From positions 1 through 64,000 of IMG/VR virus record IMGVR_UViG_3300021963_000003: 64,000 nt of DNA. One strand, written 5' to 3'. Under the pieces are notes generated by a model that saw only the letters and a list, made by a program, of their open reading frames with translations, searched no databases and had not been told where the DNA came from. Shown piece after piece: positions 43,834-51,038 of this stretch (its first letter is position 1; the number at the start of each line of letters is the position of its first letter). This DNA is from a virus. The position numbers and the translations under genes are program-made.

Positions 43834-44496
43834 CTATACGCTTTCTAACTCCATCTTTTTACCAAATATATCAGATTGCCTAACTGTAAAATATTCTACA
43901 TCTTCAATCTTATTTATAAAATTTGAGTTCTTAGCAAGTACTACCGTATCACCCTGCTTTACGTCCAATTCTTTTTGATTCAACAAGGGCTTGCCAATAT
44001 AAGAAAGCTTCGCAAACTTGACAGACTTCTTCTTTTGAATTGAAGTGACAAGACCCGCGCCGCTTAGTGTCGCCTGTATCGTGCGACCCCCGACCTCCAC
44101 GCTCTCAAACTCTTCCTCCTCTTCAACAATCTGACTACATAAAGTCCACCCTCCAACAGGTAATATATTGCCGTCCCTAACAACACAAAAAATCCAATAG
44201 TAAGGTACTTTATAACTATTGCCGTATACACAATTTGTTTCATCTGACGTAGTTAAATAATGAAAATAAACTTTGTCTCCAACTCTCACCTCCTGCTCTA
44301 TCTCAAAGCCTTCCTCGTTGTAGCACTTGCCTTGCGGGATAGCCTCGACTATACCATAAATTCTTGCGTGATGTGTTGGGTTAAAAAGAGGGTCAATAAA
44401 CACCTCTAAACTTCCGTGTTTGTAGGTCGAGTCTAATGCCTCCTCAACGCGTACGATGACAGCATTTACTGCTGATTGCTTGATGTTGTAGTTCAT
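43834..44496 (-). CDS. GroES-like co-chaperonin candidate
   Basis: This encodes 220 residues from MNYNIKQSAVNAV. It appears as two GroES-type beta barrels in tandem. The first (EQEVRVGDKVYFHYLTTSDE followed by WIFCVVRDGNILPVGGWTLC) and the second (LDVKQGDTVVLAKNSNFINK followed by VEYFTVRQSDIFGKK) each have the GDxVxF/L ... xxxVRxxDIxG pattern. Phage co-chaperonins help fold the capsid protein with host GroEL, and this gene heads the head module. A start 33 codons upstream is possible. I chose this ATG because a promoter core (TAACTTTG) lies at 44526-44533, inside that extension. The function is inferred. Confidence 0.6.
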   Translation of the reverse strand: MNYNIKQSAVNAVIVRVEEALDSTYKHGSLEVFIDPLFNPTHHARIYGIVEAIPQGKCYNEEGFEIEQEVRVGDKVYFHYLTTSDETNCVYGNSYKVPYYWIFCVVRDGNILPVGGWTLCSQIVEEEEEFESVEVGGRTIQATLSGAGLVTSIQKKKSVKFAKLSYIGKPLLNQKELDVKQGDTVVLAKNSNFINKIEDVEYFTVRQSDIFGKKMELESV

Positions 44497-44525
44497 CTTA
44501 TTAATTATTGTCTGGTTTGTAAATT

Positions 44526-44533
44526 CAAAGTTA
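44526..44533 (-). promoter_or_regulatory. -7 promoter element for the leftward (late) operon
   Basis: The minus strand reads TAACTTTG, matching TAnnTTTG, 29 bp upstream of the GroES-like ATG. A TTG occurs only about 12 nt upstream, closer than the usual spacing, so the -33 match is poor. Confidence 0.5.
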
Positions 44534-44888
44534 TATAATATTTCCCAATATATCCACCATACTTTGCGTCTAAGCAACTTAAATAGTTTAGACAATAGAT
44601 TGCCTTAAGTTTGTTTTTTAGTAGCGTAGGGTTGTCGAAAAAGGGTTATATATATTATCCGACACCAACCAAATGAAAACGACAAACGACATTTATTTAC
44701 CGAGTGGGGTCAACTTCCTTAATCCAAATTCCAAAATTCCTAGGACATTTAGATAGTTGTCTAATTAACTAATTCTATACTTAGCCATTTTGCTAATTAG
44801 TTGTTTAGCTAACTATATATTTAGTCAATCATCTAACCAAAAGAAAAACTATGTTACCATATATTAGAAAGGAAATCTATATTTCTAT

Positions 44889-44905
44889 TGTATCATTGTG
44901 ATACA
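44889..44905. repeat. 7-bp palindromic hairpin
   Basis: TGTATCA TTG TGATACA is a perfect 7-bp inverted repeat with a 3-nt loop. It may be a protein-binding site or an RNA hairpin. Confidence 0.8.
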
Positions 44906-44923
44906 TTATATATTAGTAGGGAA

Positions 44924-44967
44924 ATGTGGCTCTATGTCGTTTAAAGGGGGATAATCCCCTTCCACAT
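44924..44967. repeat. Two-tier inverted repeat
   Basis: ATGTGG (44924-44929) pairs with CCACAT (44962-44967), and inside it AAGGGG (44944-44949) pairs with CCCCTT (44956-44961). Both stems are perfect. Confidence 0.75.
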
Positions 44968-45120
44968 ACCCTTTATATAACAAAACCCGCATTAACTGTA
45001 TTATGTAGGTGTTTATCCTACATCCATTTTAAGCCACCATATCTTTGATTTAAGAGACTTTACCCCTCTAAATGTCCAATCATAAGGGCTATGTCAAGAT
45101 AATTGTTTACACGCAATTTC

Positions 45121-45188
45121 AGTACTTTATTACCGATTATTTCCCTTATACATATAGTATATAAAGGGGAGTTTCTTGATAAAGTACT
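45121..45188. repeat. 10-bp inverted repeat with nested stem
   Basis: AGTACTTTAT (45121-45130) and ATAAAGTACT (45179-45188) are perfect inverted repeats. Inside, CCCTTATA (45143-45150) can pair with TATAAAGGG (45160-45168) with one bulged A. A large cruciform or RNA hairpin is possible. Confidence 0.8.
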
Positions 45189-45227
45189 ATTTCGCTATAA
45201 ATCTGTTGTACTATTCTAATAAAATGG

Positions 45228-45259
45228 GTATTTCGTCGACACATTCCTGTATTTCGTCG
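45228..45259. repeat. 11-bp direct repeat
   Basis: GTATTTCGTCG occurs at 45228-45238 and 45249-45259, 21 bp apart (two helical turns). This is typical for side-by-side protein binding just upstream of the rightward promoter. Confidence 0.6.
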
Positions 45260-45288
45260 CTATTCTATGATATTATTATTGCTATGTA

Positions 45289-45318
45289 TTGTATAAATAA
45301 AAAGGTTTAGTACATTTG
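45289..45318 (+). promoter_or_regulatory. Bacteroidota-type promoter of the structured RNA
   Basis: TTG (45289-45291), 19 nt, then TACATTTG (45311-45318). This is an exact match to the -33/-7 consensus of the phylum's primary sigma factor. Transcription would start near 45324, inside or just before the first hairpin of the RNA, and could read on into the anti-restriction gene. Confidence 0.85.
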
Positions 45319-45320
45319 TA

Positions 45321-45735
45321 ATGTCGAACGAGACATATGGTTGCCACTACTTGAGTGGTGCAAAGGATAAGGGGGCTGAGGTGTAAATTAAGCGGGTTTC
45401 GTACCTAGCTGAGGAACGCTGATAAAGTAGGGTGTAAGTACTCGAAAAAGTCACACAGGTTTAGAGCCAACGCCCCCCGATAGTATGCTTAAAGCGTTCT
45501 TTGATTTATTGACTTATAAGTTATAAGCGTCACAGCCACGAAACGGCTGACTCCACAGGTAGATAGGGGACACCCCGCACCTGTACGCACTGAACTCCTG
45601 TGTTGTCGAGAGGTAGTCTAGCTTACTAGACGGACAAAGCCAAACCGCAACACTAACCGCAAGGTAGTTGACCCGAAAGCGTAGCAACGAATAGATTGGA
45701 TGCAGGGCGGTTCGATTCCGTCCCTATTCGCTACA
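45321..45735 (+). ncRNA. Ornate structured RNA candidate, ~415 nt
   Basis: No open frame covers this block, and base composition is more GC-rich than the flanks. Perfect or near-perfect stems seen by eye: ATGTC/GACAT (45321-45336), CCACT/AGTGG (45344-45358), GGGGGC/GCCCCC closing about 100 nt (45371-45376 with 45472-45477), CTTATAA/TTATAAG (45513-45527), CAGCC/GGCTG (45533-45549), ACAGGT/ACCTGT with GGGG/CCCC nested (45555-45584), GTGTTG/CAACAC (45600-45653) enclosing GTCTAG CTTA CTAGAC (45616-45631), and the T-arm hairpin at the end. It could be a free RNA or a long leader of the ArdC operon. No family was recognised, and it is shorter than GOLLD or ROOL. Confidence 0.75.
45681..45734 (+). 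ncRNA. tRNA-like acceptor plus T-arm hairpin
   Basis: GTAG, a 3-nt bulge, CGAATAG on the 5' side pair with CTATTCG CTAC on the 3' side (11 bp). Inside, after a 10-nt one-sided bulge ATTGGATGCA, GGGCGG TTCGATT CCGTCC forms a 6-bp stem with the canonical T-loop sequence TTCGATT. Only an acceptor-like stem and T-arm are present, so it is not a complete tRNA. It resembles the 3' part of a tmRNA. Confidence 0.7.
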
Positions 45736-45758
45736 CAACAATGTGTAAATATATCGAT

Positions 45759-45776
45759 TCGGTCTAGGTTAACCGA
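45759..45776 (+). promoter_or_regulatory. Hairpin before the anti-restriction gene
   Basis: TCGGT CTAGGTTA ACCGA, a 5-bp stem, ends 12 bp before the ArdC ATG at 45789. It could tune translation of the first early gene. Confidence 0.4.
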
Positions 45777-45788
45777 TACATTAAAGCT

Positions 45789-46742
45789 ATGGCAACATAC
45801 ACAAAAACAGAAAAATTAACTCAGTCGCAAATCATTGACAGCATCAACGACAGGGTAATCGCAGGACTACAGGACAAGGGACTTAGTTGGTTCAAACCAT
45901 TTAAGGACGGCGTAACAGGTAGCTTTCAAGCTCTCTCCGCATATGGCAGGGCTTACAAGGGTTGGAATCAATTTATCCTTTCGTCTATTGCTTTAGAGCG
46001 CGGCTGGGTCAACAAGTGGTACACCTTTGCACATATCCAAAAATGCGAGGGCTACATTAATAAAGGCGAGTCAGGTACTAACATCTTTATGTGGCAAATA
46101 AGCTACGCAGTTGAGCGTAACGGAAAGACCACGTTTTACCCTGTGTTAGCGAGCGTACCTGACGCCGACAAGAAAGACGCTAAGAAAGTATTCTACCTTA
46201 AGCAGTGGAAAGTATGGTCTATATCACAGACTAACATACCACACAGCACACCTAACCTGCCTGTGACAGAGGAAGAGACGGAGCTTGACTCCCACGCAGA
46301 CGCTGAGGCTATCCTGCAGGGTTGGGGCAAGGTTGTCCCTACCAAGCACACGAATCAAGGGCGGGCTTATTACTCCCCGTCTGCTGACTTTATCCATATG
46401 CCTGAAAAGACATCTAAGATGTGGCAGTCAAGCGGTGACTATTACAAGGTATTCTTTCACGAGGCTATCCACAGCACAGGTCACAAGTCTAGACTTAACC
46501 GCCTTGAGGAGACCGCGCGATTTGGTAACGAGGAGTACAGCAAAGAGGAACTAGTGGCGGAACTTGGAGCGTTGTACCTAGAGACTATCACAGGAATCGA
46601 TTGCCTAGTGGACGACTTCAAGAACAGCCAAGCATACATCAACGGATGGATTAAGGCAATCGCTAACGACAAGAACCTTATAATGCAGGCATCTAAGAAA
46701 TCACAAGAGGCTGTAGCTTTAATATTATCTAACGTAAACTAA
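45789..46742 (+). CDS. ArdC-type anti-restriction protein
   Basis: This encodes 317 residues. The N-terminal half (residues about 8-150, RVIAGLQDKGLSWFKPFKDG, then GYINKGESGTNIFMWQISY) fits the ssDNA-binding ArdC N-terminal domain. The C-terminal half has a zincin site, VFFHEAIHSTGHKSRLNRLE near residue 224 and EELVAELGALYLE as the third-ligand helix. ArdC proteins protect entering DNA from host restriction. It is the first early gene after the structured RNA, in keeping with a role at entry. Confidence 0.9.
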   Translation: MATYTKTEKLTQSQIIDSINDRVIAGLQDKGLSWFKPFKDGVTGSFQALSAYGRAYKGWNQFILSSIALERGWVNKWYTFAHIQKCEGYINKGESGTNIFMWQISYAVERNGKTTFYPVLASVPDADKKDAKKVFYLKQWKVWSISQTNIPHSTPNLPVTEEETELDSHADAEAILQGWGKVVPTKHTNQGRAYYSPSADFIHMPEKTSKMWQSSGDYYKVFFHEAIHSTGHKSRLNRLEETARFGNEEYSKEELVAELGALYLETITGIDCLVDDFKNSQAYINGWIKAIANDKNLIMQASKKSQEAVALILSNVN

Positions 46743-46784
46743 TCTAAAACCTTGCGGAGTACAGGTCAACCGCTAACTAAAATC

Positions 46785-46973
46785 ATGACTAAAATTATCT
46801 TATCAATCGTAGCGGTAGCGTTTACTTTACTTTACATCTTTTGTGCATTTGTATCTTGGGACTTAGGTGTCCTAGCCCACACCACAGAGGGCTGTCGCAT
46901 AGGCTTTGTTTTATCAGGTCTATTCCTGTCAAGCATTGGAACTATTATATACTCAGAAACTCAAGAATCATAA
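46785..46973 (+). CDS. Small membrane protein, two segments
   Basis: This encodes 62 residues from MTKIILSIVAVAF. Two hydrophobic segments (residues about 4-24 and 38-55) are joined by a polar loop. A longer start 11 codons upstream is possible, but it lacks the A-rich sequence that precedes this ATG. Its stop overlaps the next start (TAATG), and an envelope-modifying or host-takeover role is inferred only. Confidence 0.6.
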   Translation: MTKIILSIVAVAFTLLYIFCAFVSWDLGVLAHTTEGCRIGFVLSGLFLSSIGTIIYSETQES

Positions 46974-47104
46974 TGAGAAAGCTATTTAATCTAATCAAAG
47001 AAATCTACCAAACAGATAAACAAGGCTTATATTTTATGGTAGCGTGGGCGGTAATGTTCTACGTATTGTATTGGCTTATCTTACCTATAATTAGGGGCGT
47101 GTAG
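46973..47104 (+). CDS. Small single-span membrane protein, 43 residues
   Basis: This encodes MRKLFNLIKEIYQTDKQGLY followed by FMVAWAVMFYVLYWLILPII and RGV. It has an amphipathic N-terminus and one transmembrane helix. It is coupled to the gene before by TAATG. The function is unknown. Confidence 0.6.
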   Translation: MRKLFNLIKEIYQTDKQGLYFMVAWAVMFYVLYWLILPIIRGV

Positions 47105-47123
47105 GTTCACGTTCCACTATCAT

Positions 47124-47163
47124 CTTTAACCTCACGATGTATAGGCAATCGTTATATTATATT
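47124..47163 (+). promoter_or_regulatory. Repeated early leader, copy 1
   Basis: CTTTAACCTCACGATGTATA then GGCAATCGTTATATTATATT lead directly to the ATG at 47164. CACGAT/ATCG-type bases can form a short hairpin (CGAT ... ATCG) with GTATAGGCA in the loop. Near-identical copies lie before the genes at 47716, 48266 and 49213. The apparent start MYRQS inside it is probably not used. Confidence 0.75.
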
Positions 47164-47376
47164 ATGGAATATTGGAAAGTTATTGAAGGAAATCACAACA
47201 CCCACACCGATGGGCTAAGTTTTGCAGAGGCAAGCAATCTTGCAATGGAATTAAATGATGATTTCCCAAACAAATTTTATTGTCCGTTTCCCGACCCCGA
47301 CTACAGAGAACCACAACAACTGCGTTTCGTTCCAAGAGGTACGATGGATGGATGGGAAGACCAATTTGATTATTAA
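47164..47376 (+). CDS. Hypothetical early protein, 70 residues
   Basis: The start ATG follows the repeated leader and gives MEYWKVIEGNHNTHTDGLSF. The protein is acidic and aromatic (FYCPFPDPDYREPQQLRFVP), with no recognised domain. It may be a small adaptor or inhibitor. I would not assign more. Confidence 0.6.
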   Translation: MEYWKVIEGNHNTHTDGLSFAEASNLAMELNDDFPNKFYCPFPDPDYREPQQLRFVPRGTMDGWEDQFDY

Positions 47377-47394
47377 ACTTAAACAAAATACATT

Positions 47395-47670
47395 ATGAAA
47401 ACACCATTTGAACAAGCAGTTGAACAAGTTAGACAAGGTCGAATACAAGCACCCAAAGTATTAATGGGGAAAATGGATATGGATTACTTTGCCTATCAGC
47501 TAGTAGTCCATAAATATAATCTAGGAATTATGGCTATGGGGATGACGTGTACAGGCGTCAAGTTTACAGACATCAAGAAGTACTACGGACTCAAGGGTCG
47601 GTCAGCTAAGGCTTGTAAGCCTGAGATTGAAGAGTTATTTAATAAGTACAAATCAAGTTTAAATCAATAA
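47395..47670 (+). CDS. Hypothetical early protein, 91 residues
   Basis: The sequence MKTPFEQAVEQVRQGRIQAP is followed by a helical region and a Lys-rich C-terminus (LKGRSAKACKPEIEELFNKY). The K-x-x-D-I-K-K-Y-Y-G-L-K-G stretch suggests a small DNA-binding or HTH-type fold, but I do not recognise a family. It lies between two leader-bearing genes. Confidence 0.55.
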   Translation: MKTPFEQAVEQVRQGRIQAPKVLMGKMDMDYFAYQLVVHKYNLGIMAMGMTCTGVKFTDIKKYYGLKGRSAKACKPEIEELFNKYKSSLNQ

Positions 47671-47672
47671 AC

Positions 47673-47715
47673 CTTTAACCTCACGATGTATAGGCTAATC
47701 GTTGTATTATCTAAT
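47673..47715 (+). promoter_or_regulatory. Repeated early leader, copy 2
   Basis: TTTAACCTCACGATGTATAG, then GCTAATCGTTGTATTATCTA before ATG at 47716. Compared with copy 1 a T is inserted in the loop, while the ACGAT and ATCGT arms are kept, which suggests the stem is conserved. Confidence 0.75.
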
Positions 47716-48222
47716 ATGAGAACAATTGAAATTAACCTTTACAAGTTCGACGAACTTAATGAGCAGGCTCAAGCTAAAGCAATTAAAGCCCATCAAGAAA
47801 ATACCAATTATGATTGGTGGGATTCTATCGAGATTAATGCAGAAGAAAGCGGTGTTATTATAGAATCCTTTGACACAGACAAGGAAGACATAAGCGTATC
47901 ATTCAAGTGGGAGGCTCACGATGTAGCTAACGCTTTGGTTAAGTTTTGGGGAGCAGATAGCGACATAGGTAAGATATGTCAAACGTTCCTTGATAAAAGA
48001 AATGTATTATATAAAAAGTATGCGGGAGATGAGGCTAGTACATACAATGAGAAGTTGTATGAATCGGAAGATGAATTGGTGGATGATTTCCATGCCGACG
48101 TGTCCCATTACTTTCTTAAGCAATTAAAGAATGAGTTAGAATGGATTGAATCCGACGATTACGCAAGGGGATACCTAAGCGATATGGACTACGACTTTAT
48201 GGAAGACGGAACTGAATATTAA
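47716..48222 (+). CDS. Early protein with stability-system-like N-terminus
   Basis: This encodes 168 residues from MRTIEINLYKFDELNEQAQA, then KAIKAHQENTNYDWWDSIEI. The pattern LYKFDELxEQAxxKAIxxHxE...WW occurs in phage and mobile-element proteins annotated near toxin-antitoxin stability systems, but the function is not established. The rest is acidic and helical (YLSDMDYDFMEDGTEY at the end). A longer start 10 codons upstream would begin inside the repeated leader and is rejected. Confidence 0.6.
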   Translation: MRTIEINLYKFDELNEQAQAKAIKAHQENTNYDWWDSIEINAEESGVIIESFDTDKEDISVSFKWEAHDVANALVKFWGADSDIGKICQTFLDKRNVLYKKYAGDEASTYNEKLYESEDELVDDFHADVSHYFLKQLKNELEWIESDDYARGYLSDMDYDFMEDGTEY

Positions 48223-48223
48223 A

Positions 48224-48265
48224 CCTTTAACCTCACGATGTATAGGTCAATCGTTGTATTATATT
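48224..48265 (+). promoter_or_regulatory. Repeated early leader, copy 3
   Basis: CCTTTAACCTCACGATGTAT, then AGGTCAATCGTTGTATTATA precede ATG at 48266. Again ACGAT and ATCGT are conserved and the loop differs, as in copies 1 and 2. Confidence 0.75.
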
Positions 48266-48673
48266 ATGACTAGAGAAGAAGATATTTGGGCTTGCACTGA
48301 CTGCGGGCAATTGTACGGGCGTCACGATATGTGGTTTGAGGGCGAAATATGCGAGAAATGTTACGCAGAGATTAACTACGCTGTAGTAGACTACGACAAG
48401 ATGCAGTTGACTCTATGGTTTAAAAAAGAAGAGTTTGTCTTTGACTTAACCAATGGCGACATCGGGGACTTTTGGGACGGGTTCGAGACATCAGACGAGG
48501 AGGTCTATGACGTTAACTACCTTAAAGAAAAAGGATTCGATGACGGCGTCGAAGTATTCGGAACTTTCTTAGACGAAGACGGGTGTTTTAATATAGACAC
48601 ATCTAACTCATACTTTATTAATATCAAAGAAAGAATAGGAGACGAAAATAATTATCTAAACTACAGAAAATGA
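48266..48673 (+). CDS. Zinc-finger early protein, 135 residues
   Basis: The N-terminus MTREEDIWACTDCGQLYGRH, followed by DMWFEGEICEKCYAEI, contains two CxxC pairs (CTDC and CEKC), a likely zinc ribbon. The remainder is acidic (DIGDFWDGFETSDEEVYDVN). Protein-protein or nucleic-acid contact is possible. The start is fixed by the repeated leader. Confidence 0.65.
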   Translation: MTREEDIWACTDCGQLYGRHDMWFEGEICEKCYAEINYAVVDYDKMQLTLWFKKEEFVFDLTNGDIGDFWDGFETSDEEVYDVNYLKEKGFDDGVEVFGTFLDEDGCFNIDTSNSYFINIKERIGDENNYLNYRK

Positions 48674-48912
48674 AAGAGCAAATAAAGAACTTAAAGTCAA
48701 TGATTGACGCCTGCTACGCCTACGAGGGAGCAGAGCGGGACTCGTACAACTACCATACATACATCAAACAATTTGAAGGCATATTAGGTAGCGTATTATT
48801 TGAGAAGGTCTATACAGAATACCTTCAGCACCTTAAGGATAATTTTAAAATAGTTGAGTCAATATACAAAGACTCCGACGGACTAACATACAACTCACTA
48901 CAAGCAATATGA
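48670..48912 (+). CDS. Hypothetical early protein, 80 residues
   Basis: The sequence MKEQIKNLKSMIDACYAYEG and following is helical and acidic/aromatic. Its ATG overlaps the previous stop (ATGA) and its stop overlaps the next start (ATGA). No domain was recognised. Confidence 0.55.
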   Translation: MKEQIKNLKSMIDACYAYEGAERDSYNYHTYIKQFEGILGSVLFEKVYTEYLQHLKDNFKIVESIYKDSDGLTYNSLQAI

Positions 48913-49163
48913 ACAAGCAAATATTTAAGATAGGCAGGGCGGACGTAATCAAGTACTACGCCACCTCTCCAAGCGGTAAGCTAATCACACGCTACCAAGA
49001 GGACGACGGCTTTACGTCACATCGTTCAGTAATATCTAAGGTCGTGGAGGCTCTACCCGATTGGTACGACGAGGGGATGGTATACGTCCACATCGTATGC
49101 GAGGACAAGGGTATAGCTAAGGACATCGGCGTCAGACTACCTAAGTTCACGTACAACAATTAA
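48909..49163 (+). CDS. Hypothetical early protein, 84 residues
   Basis: MNKQIFKIGRADVIKYYATS, then SGKLITRYQEDDGFTSHRSV: a mixed alpha/beta pattern with the final segment VYVHIVCEDKGIAKDIGVRL. No family was recognised. It is translationally coupled to the gene before by ATGA. Confidence 0.55.
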   Translation: MNKQIFKIGRADVIKYYATSPSGKLITRYQEDDGFTSHRSVISKVVEALPDWYDEGMVYVHIVCEDKGIAKDIGVRLPKFTYNN

Positions 49164-49179
49164 TCCCACTAGCAACAAT

Positions 49180-49212
49180 AACCTCTCGATGTATAGGCAA
49201 TCGTATACTAAA
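49180..49212 (+). promoter_or_regulatory. Repeated early leader, copy 4 (diverged)
   Basis: AACCTCTCGATGTATAGGCA, then ATCGTATACTAAA before ATG at 49213. The core CGATGTATAGGCAATCG is kept, while the 3' extension differs from copies 1-3. Confidence 0.65.
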
Positions 49213-49479
49213 ATGAATGTAAGAGAAATGTTTGAGGGCAACGACGCCCAAATAAAGAACAGCTACGCCTACATAATCGGCAGGTTTGCGTATCGTCGGA
49301 TGTACACCAAGAACGAGACTCCAGAAGACCACGCAATTAAAAAGATTTGCGACATCTACTTTTATGCTCCTGAGATGATATCAGTCAAGCAGTTAGATTG
49401 GGTCATTAGGTACGCCACTAAGTTTAGGATTGAATATCCTATTACGTCGGCACAATCAGTGGTTTCGTCTACAAATTAG
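49213..49479 (+). CDS. Hypothetical early protein, 88 residues
   Basis: From MNVREMFEGNDAQIKNSYAY, then IIGRFAYRRMYTKNETPEDH, it is helical with a basic patch (FRIEYPITSAQSVV at the end). No recognised domain. The start codon is set by leader copy 4. Confidence 0.55.
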   Translation: MNVREMFEGNDAQIKNSYAYIIGRFAYRRMYTKNETPEDHAIKKICDIYFYAPEMISVKQLDWVIRYATKFRIEYPITSAQSVVSSTN

Positions 49480-49530
49480 GTAATATATTAAAACAAGTAC
49501 GTAAATTTAAATTCAACTAAACCAACAAAA

Positions 49531-49761
49531 ATGACAAATCAGAGAACAAAGATTATCGACTGCATCATGGAATGCACTCTACCCGAGACACAAGCACACT
49601 CAATTGATTCAATAGCTAGGATGTACACCGACGACCTAGTGGATGTACTTATCACTGAGTATTATCTTTTGCGTGAGCAATACGACAATTTAATAATCAA
49701 ATCAAACGAGGACTCTCAGAAACTTTTAGATAAGATAGAGCAACTCAATTCAAGGCTATGA
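49531..49761 (+). CDS. Hypothetical early protein, 76 residues
   Basis: MTNQRTKIIDCIMECTLPET followed by helices ending EDSQKLLDKIEQLNSRL, coiled-coil-like. The ATG is preceded by A-rich sequence (CCAACAAAA), the usual start context here. It overlaps the next gene by ATGA. Confidence 0.55.
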   Translation: MTNQRTKIIDCIMECTLPETQAHSIDSIARMYTDDLVDVLITEYYLLREQYDNLIIKSNEDSQKLLDKIEQLNSRL

Positions 49762-50096
49762 TGCACACACTAGACGGGATGTTTGAGAATCCAATGGATG
49801 ACTTGAACAAGATTTTAAAGGATTTAAATATTAAAAAAACAAGAGGAGTAATGACAAAATTAGTATTATATATTAATCCATTTATTTGTACGATAGCTAT
49901 ATCGGCTAGGATTAATAAGGTAGAGGAGCGTTCGGTTACCGACTACAATCCATTTGACTACCCAAGCGTGTCTTATTTCTCTTTGGCAGACAGGACATTT
50001 AAGTTAACAGTGGATTATAACGACTCCTTTGAGGTACTTGTAGAAGACCACGACGATGGAACGGCTCAACCTATGACAATCAAGTACGTAAAATGA
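49758..50096 (+). CDS. Hypothetical early protein, 112 residues
   Basis: The first 20 residues are hydrophilic, then MTKLVLYINPFICTIAISAR is hydrophobic and may be a beta strand or membrane-associated. The C-terminal half is beta-rich (LADRTFKLTVDYNDSFEVLV). No known domain. It overlaps neighbours by ATGA on both sides. Confidence 0.5.
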   Translation: MMHTLDGMFENPMDDLNKILKDLNIKKTRGVMTKLVLYINPFICTIAISARINKVEERSVTDYNPFDYPSVSYFSLADRTFKLTVDYNDSFEVLVEDHDDGTAQPMTIKYVK

Positions 50097-50185
50097 AGAA
50101 AGATAACACCTATTCAGAACTAATAGAATGTGTCGTGGCTATATTCTTTGTGGCACTTGCATACTATGTAATTGTACTACTATAA
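50093..50185 (+). CDS. Tiny membrane protein, 30 residues
   Basis: MKKDNTYSELIECVVAIFFV then ALAYYVIVLL: one predicted transmembrane helix. It overlaps the upstream stop (ATGA). Real coding is supported by the ATGA coupling and position, but it is very short. Confidence 0.45.
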   Translation: MKKDNTYSELIECVVAIFFVALAYYVIVLL

Positions 50186-50199
50186 ACTAATCTAAACTT

Positions 50200-50373
50200 A
50201 TGAAAACATTACTAATAACGTCGGGGTTCACGTTCCTCGCATCACTTGTCGGTTGTTCTATTACAGAAGACCAAGCATTTAAGAATGACCTATGTGTCTT
50301 TGGGTTGATGTGTCTATTCTCGTTTATGTATGCGTCACACCTAGTCGGAACTAATAAACAAAATAGGAAATAA
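50200..50373 (+). CDS. Small lipoprotein or membrane protein, 57 residues
   Basis: MKTLLITSGFTFLASLVGCS is a signal-like stretch with LVGC as a possible lipobox; a second hydrophobic segment (LCVFGLMCLFSFMYASHLVG) follows. It could be a superinfection-exclusion or envelope protein, which is an inference. The preceding TCTAAACTT sits just before the ATG. Confidence 0.5.
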   Translation: MKTLLITSGFTFLASLVGCSITEDQAFKNDLCVFGLMCLFSFMYASHLVGTNKQNRK

Positions 50374-50375
50374 TT

Positions 50376-50660
50376 ATGAAAGAAAACAAAAGACTTATCA
50401 TTGAGGCTATCGCCTTTGCAATATTGCTTGTGTCGGCTCTAATTATATGGGTCAATACGATTCTAAAGGAACCCGAAAGAACCTTCAAGCAAGAGCCATT
50501 AACGGCGTCACAAGTGGACGTTAAGATGTTAGAGTACGACGGCTACGAGAATGTATACAAAGAGATGGGAACTCTACAATCTGAGGACATATATCCAGAA
50601 TCCATTGACAATAGATTATATACTACAAAAGGAAGATTAAAAAACAATTTAAATAAATGA
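50376..50660 (+). CDS. Single-span membrane protein, 94 residues
   Basis: One N-terminal hydrophobic helix (LIIEAIAFAILLVSALIIWV), then a hydrophilic domain (residues about 35-94). Type II-like topology. It follows the small lipoprotein-like gene by two bases. The function is unknown. Confidence 0.55.
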   Translation: MKENKRLIIEAIAFAILLVSALIIWVNTILKEPERTFKQEPLTASQVDVKMLEYDGYENVYKEMGTLQSEDIYPESIDNRLYTTKGRLKNNLNK

Positions 50661-50663
50661 ACA

Positions 50664-51038
50664 ATGTTTAACACGAACAGAAAGATTGAGTACACCTATA
50701 TGGGAGGCACTAAGAAACTAGTAAGTAAGATTATTGACGGGGTTAGAATGGACACGTGGGTTACGAGCAGTGACCACAGAGAGATGTGCATCTACAAGAT
50801 TCAAGACCATAACGTAAACCTAAGGGAACTTAGACAGGACGGAGACTCGTTTAGGAAGACCAAGTATAGGGTCAAGTATCTTTTGCTCCATAAAATTGAG
50901 ATGGAAAACATTGGAGAGTTTATCCACGCGTCTGAGGACTACAGGACTATGTGGTTCACCAATCCGTCACACCCCGAGGGCAAGAAGATAGGCATACCTA
51001 TTATGAACATTGTCTCCTGCGAAAAGGTAAGGGACTAG
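50664..51038 (+). CDS. Hypothetical early protein, 124 residues
   Basis: MFNTNRKIEYTYMGGTKKLV and onwards: beta-rich with a basic middle (FRKTKYRVKYLLLHKIEMEN). No recognised domain. Its TAG stop overlaps a GTG start of the next gene (TAGTG). Confidence 0.55.
   Translation: MFNTNRKIEYTYMGGTKKLVSKIIDGVRMDTWVTSSDHREMCIYKIQDHNVNLRELRQDGDSFRKTKYRVKYLLLHKIEMENIGEFIHASEDYRTMWFTNPSHPEGKKIGIPIMNIVSCEKVRD

Follow-up and report, generated by a model that had tools for sequence, protein, structure and literature searches.

A short structured leader with a candidate pseudoknot recurs ahead of start codons in phages and bacterial genomes

What role is played by a short element that recurs ahead of several small genes in one stretch of viral DNA? 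The stretch in question, hereafter the window, comprises positions 1 to 64,000 of the IMG/VR virus record IMGVR_UViG_3300021963_000003 (64,016 bases). A preliminary description of its sequence had noted a leader of about 40 bp with a hairpin before the ATG of four small genes, and had suggested that it might be a phage-specific promoter, a translation enhancer or a regulator-binding leader. The explanation that we find best, and in which we place roughly even confidence on the strength of sequence comparison, is that the element is a cis-acting mRNA leader of 26–29 nt with a candidate pseudoknot, which would act on initiation at the next AUG.

All four copies already described were confirmed: searching the window for AACCTCACGATGTATAGGC with up to three mismatches returned exactly four matches, at 47128, 47677, 48229 and 49180, all on the plus strand, and none in 100 shuffles. 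The four downstream ATGs (47164, 47716, 48266 and 49213) had also been placed correctly. The total was too low, since a covariance model built from relatives found a fifth copy, AAAACCTTGCGGAGTACAGGTCAACCGCT, at 46746–46774 ahead of an ATG at 46785. Its stem is GCGG/CCGC instead of CGAT/ATCG, with self-complementarity kept. A second covariance model, R2, built without any rows from the window, matched all five copies with E values of 4.9e-8 to 1e-6; with filters off, no further match appeared up to E = 3. The five lie on the plus strand inside 2.5 kb, and their stems end, in order, 11, 11, 13, 11 and 8 nt before the ATG. The picture of constant arms around a variable loop needed revision. The loop sequence GTATAGG is identical in the four copies first reported, and only the next 1–2 bases vary; the copy at 49178 (TCGAT/ATCGT) lacks the outermost pair, and across relatives the arms co-vary. 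The false upstream start attributed to ATGTATAGG exists in the CGAT stem class, and the GCGG class has no such ATG. An upstream reading frame beginning there was rejected, as its frame differs in the copy at 48227 and the ATG is missing in the GCGG class.

Related elements were gathered by scans of viral contigs and bacterial genomes, yielding at least 283 aligned elements. Duplicates were removed for the spacing listing and for the promoter-box, Shine-Dalgarno, pair, ortholog and free-base counts. Seven weak model matches (L066:2155, L156:5672, L074:11092, L101:8165, L248:6202, L021:2178 and L013:11) were left out of the spacing and Shine-Dalgarno counts, and the same seven, L401:1843 and length outliers were dropped from pair counts made on 244 elements. 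Eight chance matches in coding regions (L140, L150, L153, L157, L170, L181, L188 and L189) stayed outside the model set, L126 was also kept out of the source lists, and alignment A1, in which the 3' arms are unaligned, was used for no model.

The suggestion that the arms form an RNA structure is strongly supported by this collection. Two-sided changes occur at all five stem pairs, giving the conserved helix with compensatory changes that marks a cis-acting structured mRNA leader. A scan with the core found outer pairs of the types A..T, T..A and C..G, and among the matches listed in a scan that left both arms free were the wholly changed yet complementary stems CCAGT/ACTGG, CCTGT/ACAGG and TCCAT/ATGGA, as well as TCAAT/ATTGA, GCAAT/ATTGC and TCTGT/ACAGA. 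Again among the matches listed, four or more of the five positions pair in 13 of the 17 non-CGAT matches that have a correctly placed ATG, compared with 14 of the 68 that lack one and 17.4% of shuffled pairings. This comparison is a fairer test of the stem than the alignments A7 and A8, which were fitted to it, so that their pair counts lean that way; the free-base scans serve as controls. In the model alignments, standard pairs fill 95.7% of cells (132 distinct rows) and 94.9% (118 distinct rows), covariation reaches 0.385 against 0.145 when shuffled and 0.469 against 0.164, respectively, and sliding the stem partner abolishes pairing in both. The fourth pair is A-U in 152 of the 244 distinct elements, G-C in 91 and U-G in one, and is broken in none. 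The outer pair is strand-asymmetric, with 33 G-U pairs (53.4 expected) and seven A-C pairs (23.5 expected).

Two trinucleotides outside the stem, CCU on its 5' side with one base between and AGG in the loop, almost never vary, and neither does the A before the 3' arm; the loop reads GUANAGG or a variant of it. When the six CCU/AGG bases were left free, the pair was kept in 33 of 34 distinct CGAT-class matches and in all 20 of the GCGG class, and the sole exception among these 54, CCU/GGG, could still pair. With the four other loop bases left free, GUAN was the commonest form among the matches listed (99 of 131 distinct), and 22 of the 32 listed variants had an ATG at 7–13 nt. Pairing of CCU with AGG would be expected to keep these bases fixed and leave the linker replaceable. 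We regard a small H-type pseudoknot formed in this way as likely, though not proven; it would have a 3-bp stem and a first loop of 1 nt, a second of 4 nt and a third of 2–3 nt. A CsrA-like GGA binding site was dropped from consideration, as the base following AGG is free.

The element keeps its distance from start codons throughout the collection. An ATG opening a frame of at least 25 codons lies within reach of 267 of 283 elements, and it falls at 7–13 nt in 216 of the 283, compared with 71 of 1154 control positions; the narrower interval of 8–11 nt past the stem holds for 142 of 198. In a capybara microvirus and in the crAss-like phages frurule and cr50_1, the genes as deposited start 8–9 nt after the element. 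None of the 216 elements with an ATG at 7–13 nt has a strong Shine-Dalgarno sequence, and the element is not itself a Shine-Dalgarno element. The start context is A-rich (67% at −3, 59% at −6), and A at these two positions is the start context of Bacteroidia as given in the available text of PMC9976891. The fixed spacing favours an effect on translation.

As the preliminary description had proposed, related phages were searched, and the element proved to be conserved in many of them. Named carriers include Flavobacterium columnare phages, the snusmum and hattifnatt phages, a Riemerella phage and a tortoise microvirus (five records confirmed by the model), together with porcine and capybara microviruses and frurule and cr50_1 (five of six records confirmed, the sixth being AbIPP1). 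Several phages have numerous copies: at E ≤ 0.1 there are 13 in G301 and 10 in G302, and the weakest of these may be fortuitous. Some carriers use Shine-Dalgarno sequences. A DNA search of the leader region against named phages gave no match. A plasmid search likewise returned no match to the element, and its reading as a plasmid element was rejected. A match in Acinetobacter phage AbIPP1 scored 8.9 bits and is not an element, and enterobacterial, Bacillus and Vibrio matches, which cover only 16–19 nt of the query, were taken as chance. Bacterial genomes contributed 88 matching stretches, and 74 of the 80 with titles name Bacteroidota; four titled stretches (L371, L380, L387 and L409) bear other or unclear labels, and two matches, L378 (an archaeon) and L433 (Solirubrobacteraceae), have no start context and look like chance. 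A model search of genomes, whose first-look filter scored only 25 candidates per genome, found the element in 2 of 296 and 2 of 395 genomes of the phylum of the Prevotella centre, with the centre itself counted, in 1 of 398 genomes of the phylum of a Clostridia-labelled genome, this one being the centre itself, and in none of 296 genomes of a third phylum. The element is sporadic in hosts.

The genes that follow the element share no evident function. Pfam assigned eight families to 102 viral downstream proteins, none of them in more than two proteins, and PHROGs gave the downstream proteins no common function; for 93 proteins at genome loci, the Pfam assignments are mainly BspA-type leucine-rich repeats (10) and PD-(D/E)XK nucleases (5). 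Orthologs of the same gene differ in what precedes them. The gene at 47395 has no element in the window, and its orthologs in L469, L052 and L500 do. For the gene at 49213, the ortholog in L043 has the element, that in L052 has it with the other stem, and those in seven further relatives have none. Orthologs of the gene at 48266 have the other stem, of the GCGGT class, in L491 and L502, and the one in L470 has no element. Such gain, loss and exchange of stems among orthologs fits a portable module better than a gene-specific switch.

The position of the element within transcripts was assessed with TAnnTTTG, which we take to be the −7 box of Bacteroidota promoters. Nearly half of the elements with enough flank (98 of 201) have a stop codon no more than 20 nt upstream, and only three of these 98 have a box upstream (4.0 expected). 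A box precedes 25 of the 103 elements that have no close upstream gene (4.7 expected), mostly 20–50 nt away, so that transcription probably begins ahead of the element in those loci. On these counts the element would usually be a transcribed leader rather than a promoter. Individual loci show other arrangements. A −7 box follows the element in Flavobacterium phage snusmum and at the copies L447:3998–4026 and L436:7677–7705, and in Tortoise microvirus 14 (L450:5155) an unannotated open reading frame (ORF) of 62 amino acids (aa) is preceded by both a TAnnTTTG box and the element.

Taken together, the fixed spacing, the lack of Shine-Dalgarno sequences, the A residues at −3 and −6 and the independence from any particular gene point to translation initiation. 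We propose that CCU–AGG pairing would complete the pseudoknot, and that the fold may dock on the 30S subunit, on the side where the mRNA exits, or a host factor may do likewise. This would affect initiation at the next AUG and most likely raise it, for individual cistrons within the long transcripts of phages, chiefly those whose hosts make no use of Shine-Dalgarno pairing. In the CGAT class, the AUG at the stem-loop junction would in addition be concealed by the fold. The ribosomal protein bS21 is encoded in none of 19 records tested, and a phage-encoded bS21 was accordingly rejected as partner; since the element also occurs in microviruses of about 6 kb, a dedicated phage partner is unlikely, and a host factor such as the ribosome appears likelier. 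Several observations weigh against an initiation leader of this kind. The hairpin alone is weak, at −2.4 to −4.7 kcal/mol, roughly equal to shuffles, and CCU/AGG is never exchanged for another Watson-Crick pair, which leaves the pseudoknot without proof from covariation. Where the ATG is 14–80 nt away, 11 of 45 elements have a strong Shine-Dalgarno sequence between element and ATG, so a pure substitute for Shine-Dalgarno pairing fails to cover all cases. Among 30 distant or start-less elements, six have a −7 box downstream (1.4 expected), and some copies may sit upstream of a promoter. Finally, the available text of PMC9976891 describes Bacteroidia initiation as favouring little structure around the start, a preference with which a fold close by would seem to conflict.

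These points give room to other explanations. The fold might be the binding site of a trans-acting regulator, either an RNA-binding protein of the host or a protein of the phage, that represses translation of the next gene or sets its timing, as the operator hairpins of other phages do. We consider this unlikely: invariant CCU and AGG and an almost constant A ahead of the 3' arm, combined with a freely changing stem, do resemble a recognition surface, and proximity to the start codon suits repression, but microviruses, crAss-like, Flavobacterium and Riemerella phages and bacterial genomes would all need one very widely conserved factor, and bS21, the only shared candidate looked for, was absent from the 19 records. 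It seems distinctly unlikely that the element instead marks or stabilises the 5' ends of cistrons cut from long phage transcripts. The many copies close behind a stop codon would agree with such processing, and ribozyme-like matches hint that some phages may cut their transcripts; protection, however, requires no fixed distance to an ATG, and there are just two such matches, both under the Rfam gathering score. One is hammerhead-like (L101:1361–1409, plus strand, 31.6 bits against a gathering score of 34) and lies 17 nt upstream of the copy at L101:1426, where the phage transcript may cleave itself just ahead of the element. The other resembles a Type-P1 twister (L482:7820–7871, minus strand, 39.7 bits against 67.2) and lies upstream of an ArdC-like gene that is itself followed by the element.

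Could the candidate pseudoknot, compact and with invariant bases, be a very small riboswitch, stabilised by a ligand and controlling the adjacent start site? Its place directly 5' of the initiation region, with or without a Shine-Dalgarno sequence, would allow this, but no pathway is common to the downstream genes, many copies in one genome stand before unrelated genes, and Rfam gives no match; we therefore give this reading only a small chance. A phage-specific promoter or DNA operator, one of the roles first suggested, is very improbable. A conserved sequence upstream of genes, with a −7 box after the element in a few loci, could suggest it. Against it stand the compensated stem changes, the strand asymmetry of the outer pair, and the box and stop-codon counts above, in which about half of the copies lie within 20 nt of a stop codon without a box and 25 of the 103 others have a box upstream.

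Within the window, copy 1 (46746..46774; 31.2 bits with model R1, 40.4 bits and E 6.4e-8 with R2) precedes a 62-aa ORF (46785..46973) whose ortholog in L248 also has the element. Copies 2 (47126..47153) and 3 (47675..47703), both ACGAT/ATCGT and matched by pattern and model, precede ORFs of 70 aa (47164..47376) and 168 aa (47716..48222). Copy 4 (48227..48255, ACGAT/ATCGT; R2 40.8 bits, E 4.9e-8) stands before a 135-aa ORF (48266..48673), and copy 5, which has lost its outer pair (49178..49205; R2 35.9 bits, E 8e-7), before an 88-aa ORF (49213..49479), all these features being on the plus strand. The minus strand of the record carries terminase, portal and head genes, and the plus strand of the window an ArdC-like antirestriction gene, a replication initiator and a DnaB-like helicase; GC and AT skew flip sign near 45000, where the structural arm on the minus strand gives way to the plus-strand arm. 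The leader had been called early, a tentative label drawn from its position beside the replication genes. The ArdC-like gene (45789–46742) ends at its stop (46742) directly before copy 1, and the same order recurs in L482, a phage whose element is followed by a Shine-Dalgarno-like sequence.

Rfam 15 returned no matches at E ≤ 5 for window positions 44000–51000 and listed none at the element in seven plus seven further loci, and a search of the accessible literature that included the core letters found no earlier description, with an unlabelled entry in the supplementary tables of a large motif survey being possible. Short H-type pseudoknots in leaders are familiar from the T4 gene 32 leader, an operator, and from preQ1-I, a small riboswitch that Rfam holds; the element differs from both in sequence, size and gene context. 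STAXI, as far as described in the available text of PMC2864571, is pseudoknot-based, as the element would be, and lies near antirestriction and other DNA-handling genes; one copy of the element follows an ArdC-like gene in the window and in L482. STAXI consists of two to three tandem pseudoknots, often with UUCG tetraloops, whereas the element occurs as isolated units, one for each gene and separated by hundreds of bases, without UUCG and spaced to the start codon. Like the Shine-Dalgarno sequence (as treated in the accessible part of PMC9976891), it is short and at a fixed distance ahead of the start codon; unlike it, it is a folded RNA without anti-Shine-Dalgarno complementarity there, and it is sometimes additional to a Shine-Dalgarno sequence. 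Candidate structured RNAs from the human microbiome (PMC8040213, available text) rest on the same type of evidence, and some Bacteroidetes candidates lie near phage genes; the examples named there are longer (40–132 bp), and overlap with the supplementary tables is possible.

A bolder extension, which we put forward tentatively and hold to be doubtful, is that this 26-nt pseudoknot family is a ribosome-docking initiation module in bacteria unable to use Shine-Dalgarno pairing, a prokaryotic counterpart of a minimal internal ribosome entry element that may have passed horizontally between tailed phages, microviruses and genomic islands and been placed before any gene. A tiny portable RNA that phages set at a fixed distance ahead of start codons would give a direct handle on how Bacteroidota select these codons when Shine-Dalgarno pairing plays no part. 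The element is also a candidate tool to tune expression in gut Bacteroides, and may serve as a marker for unannotated small phage genes.
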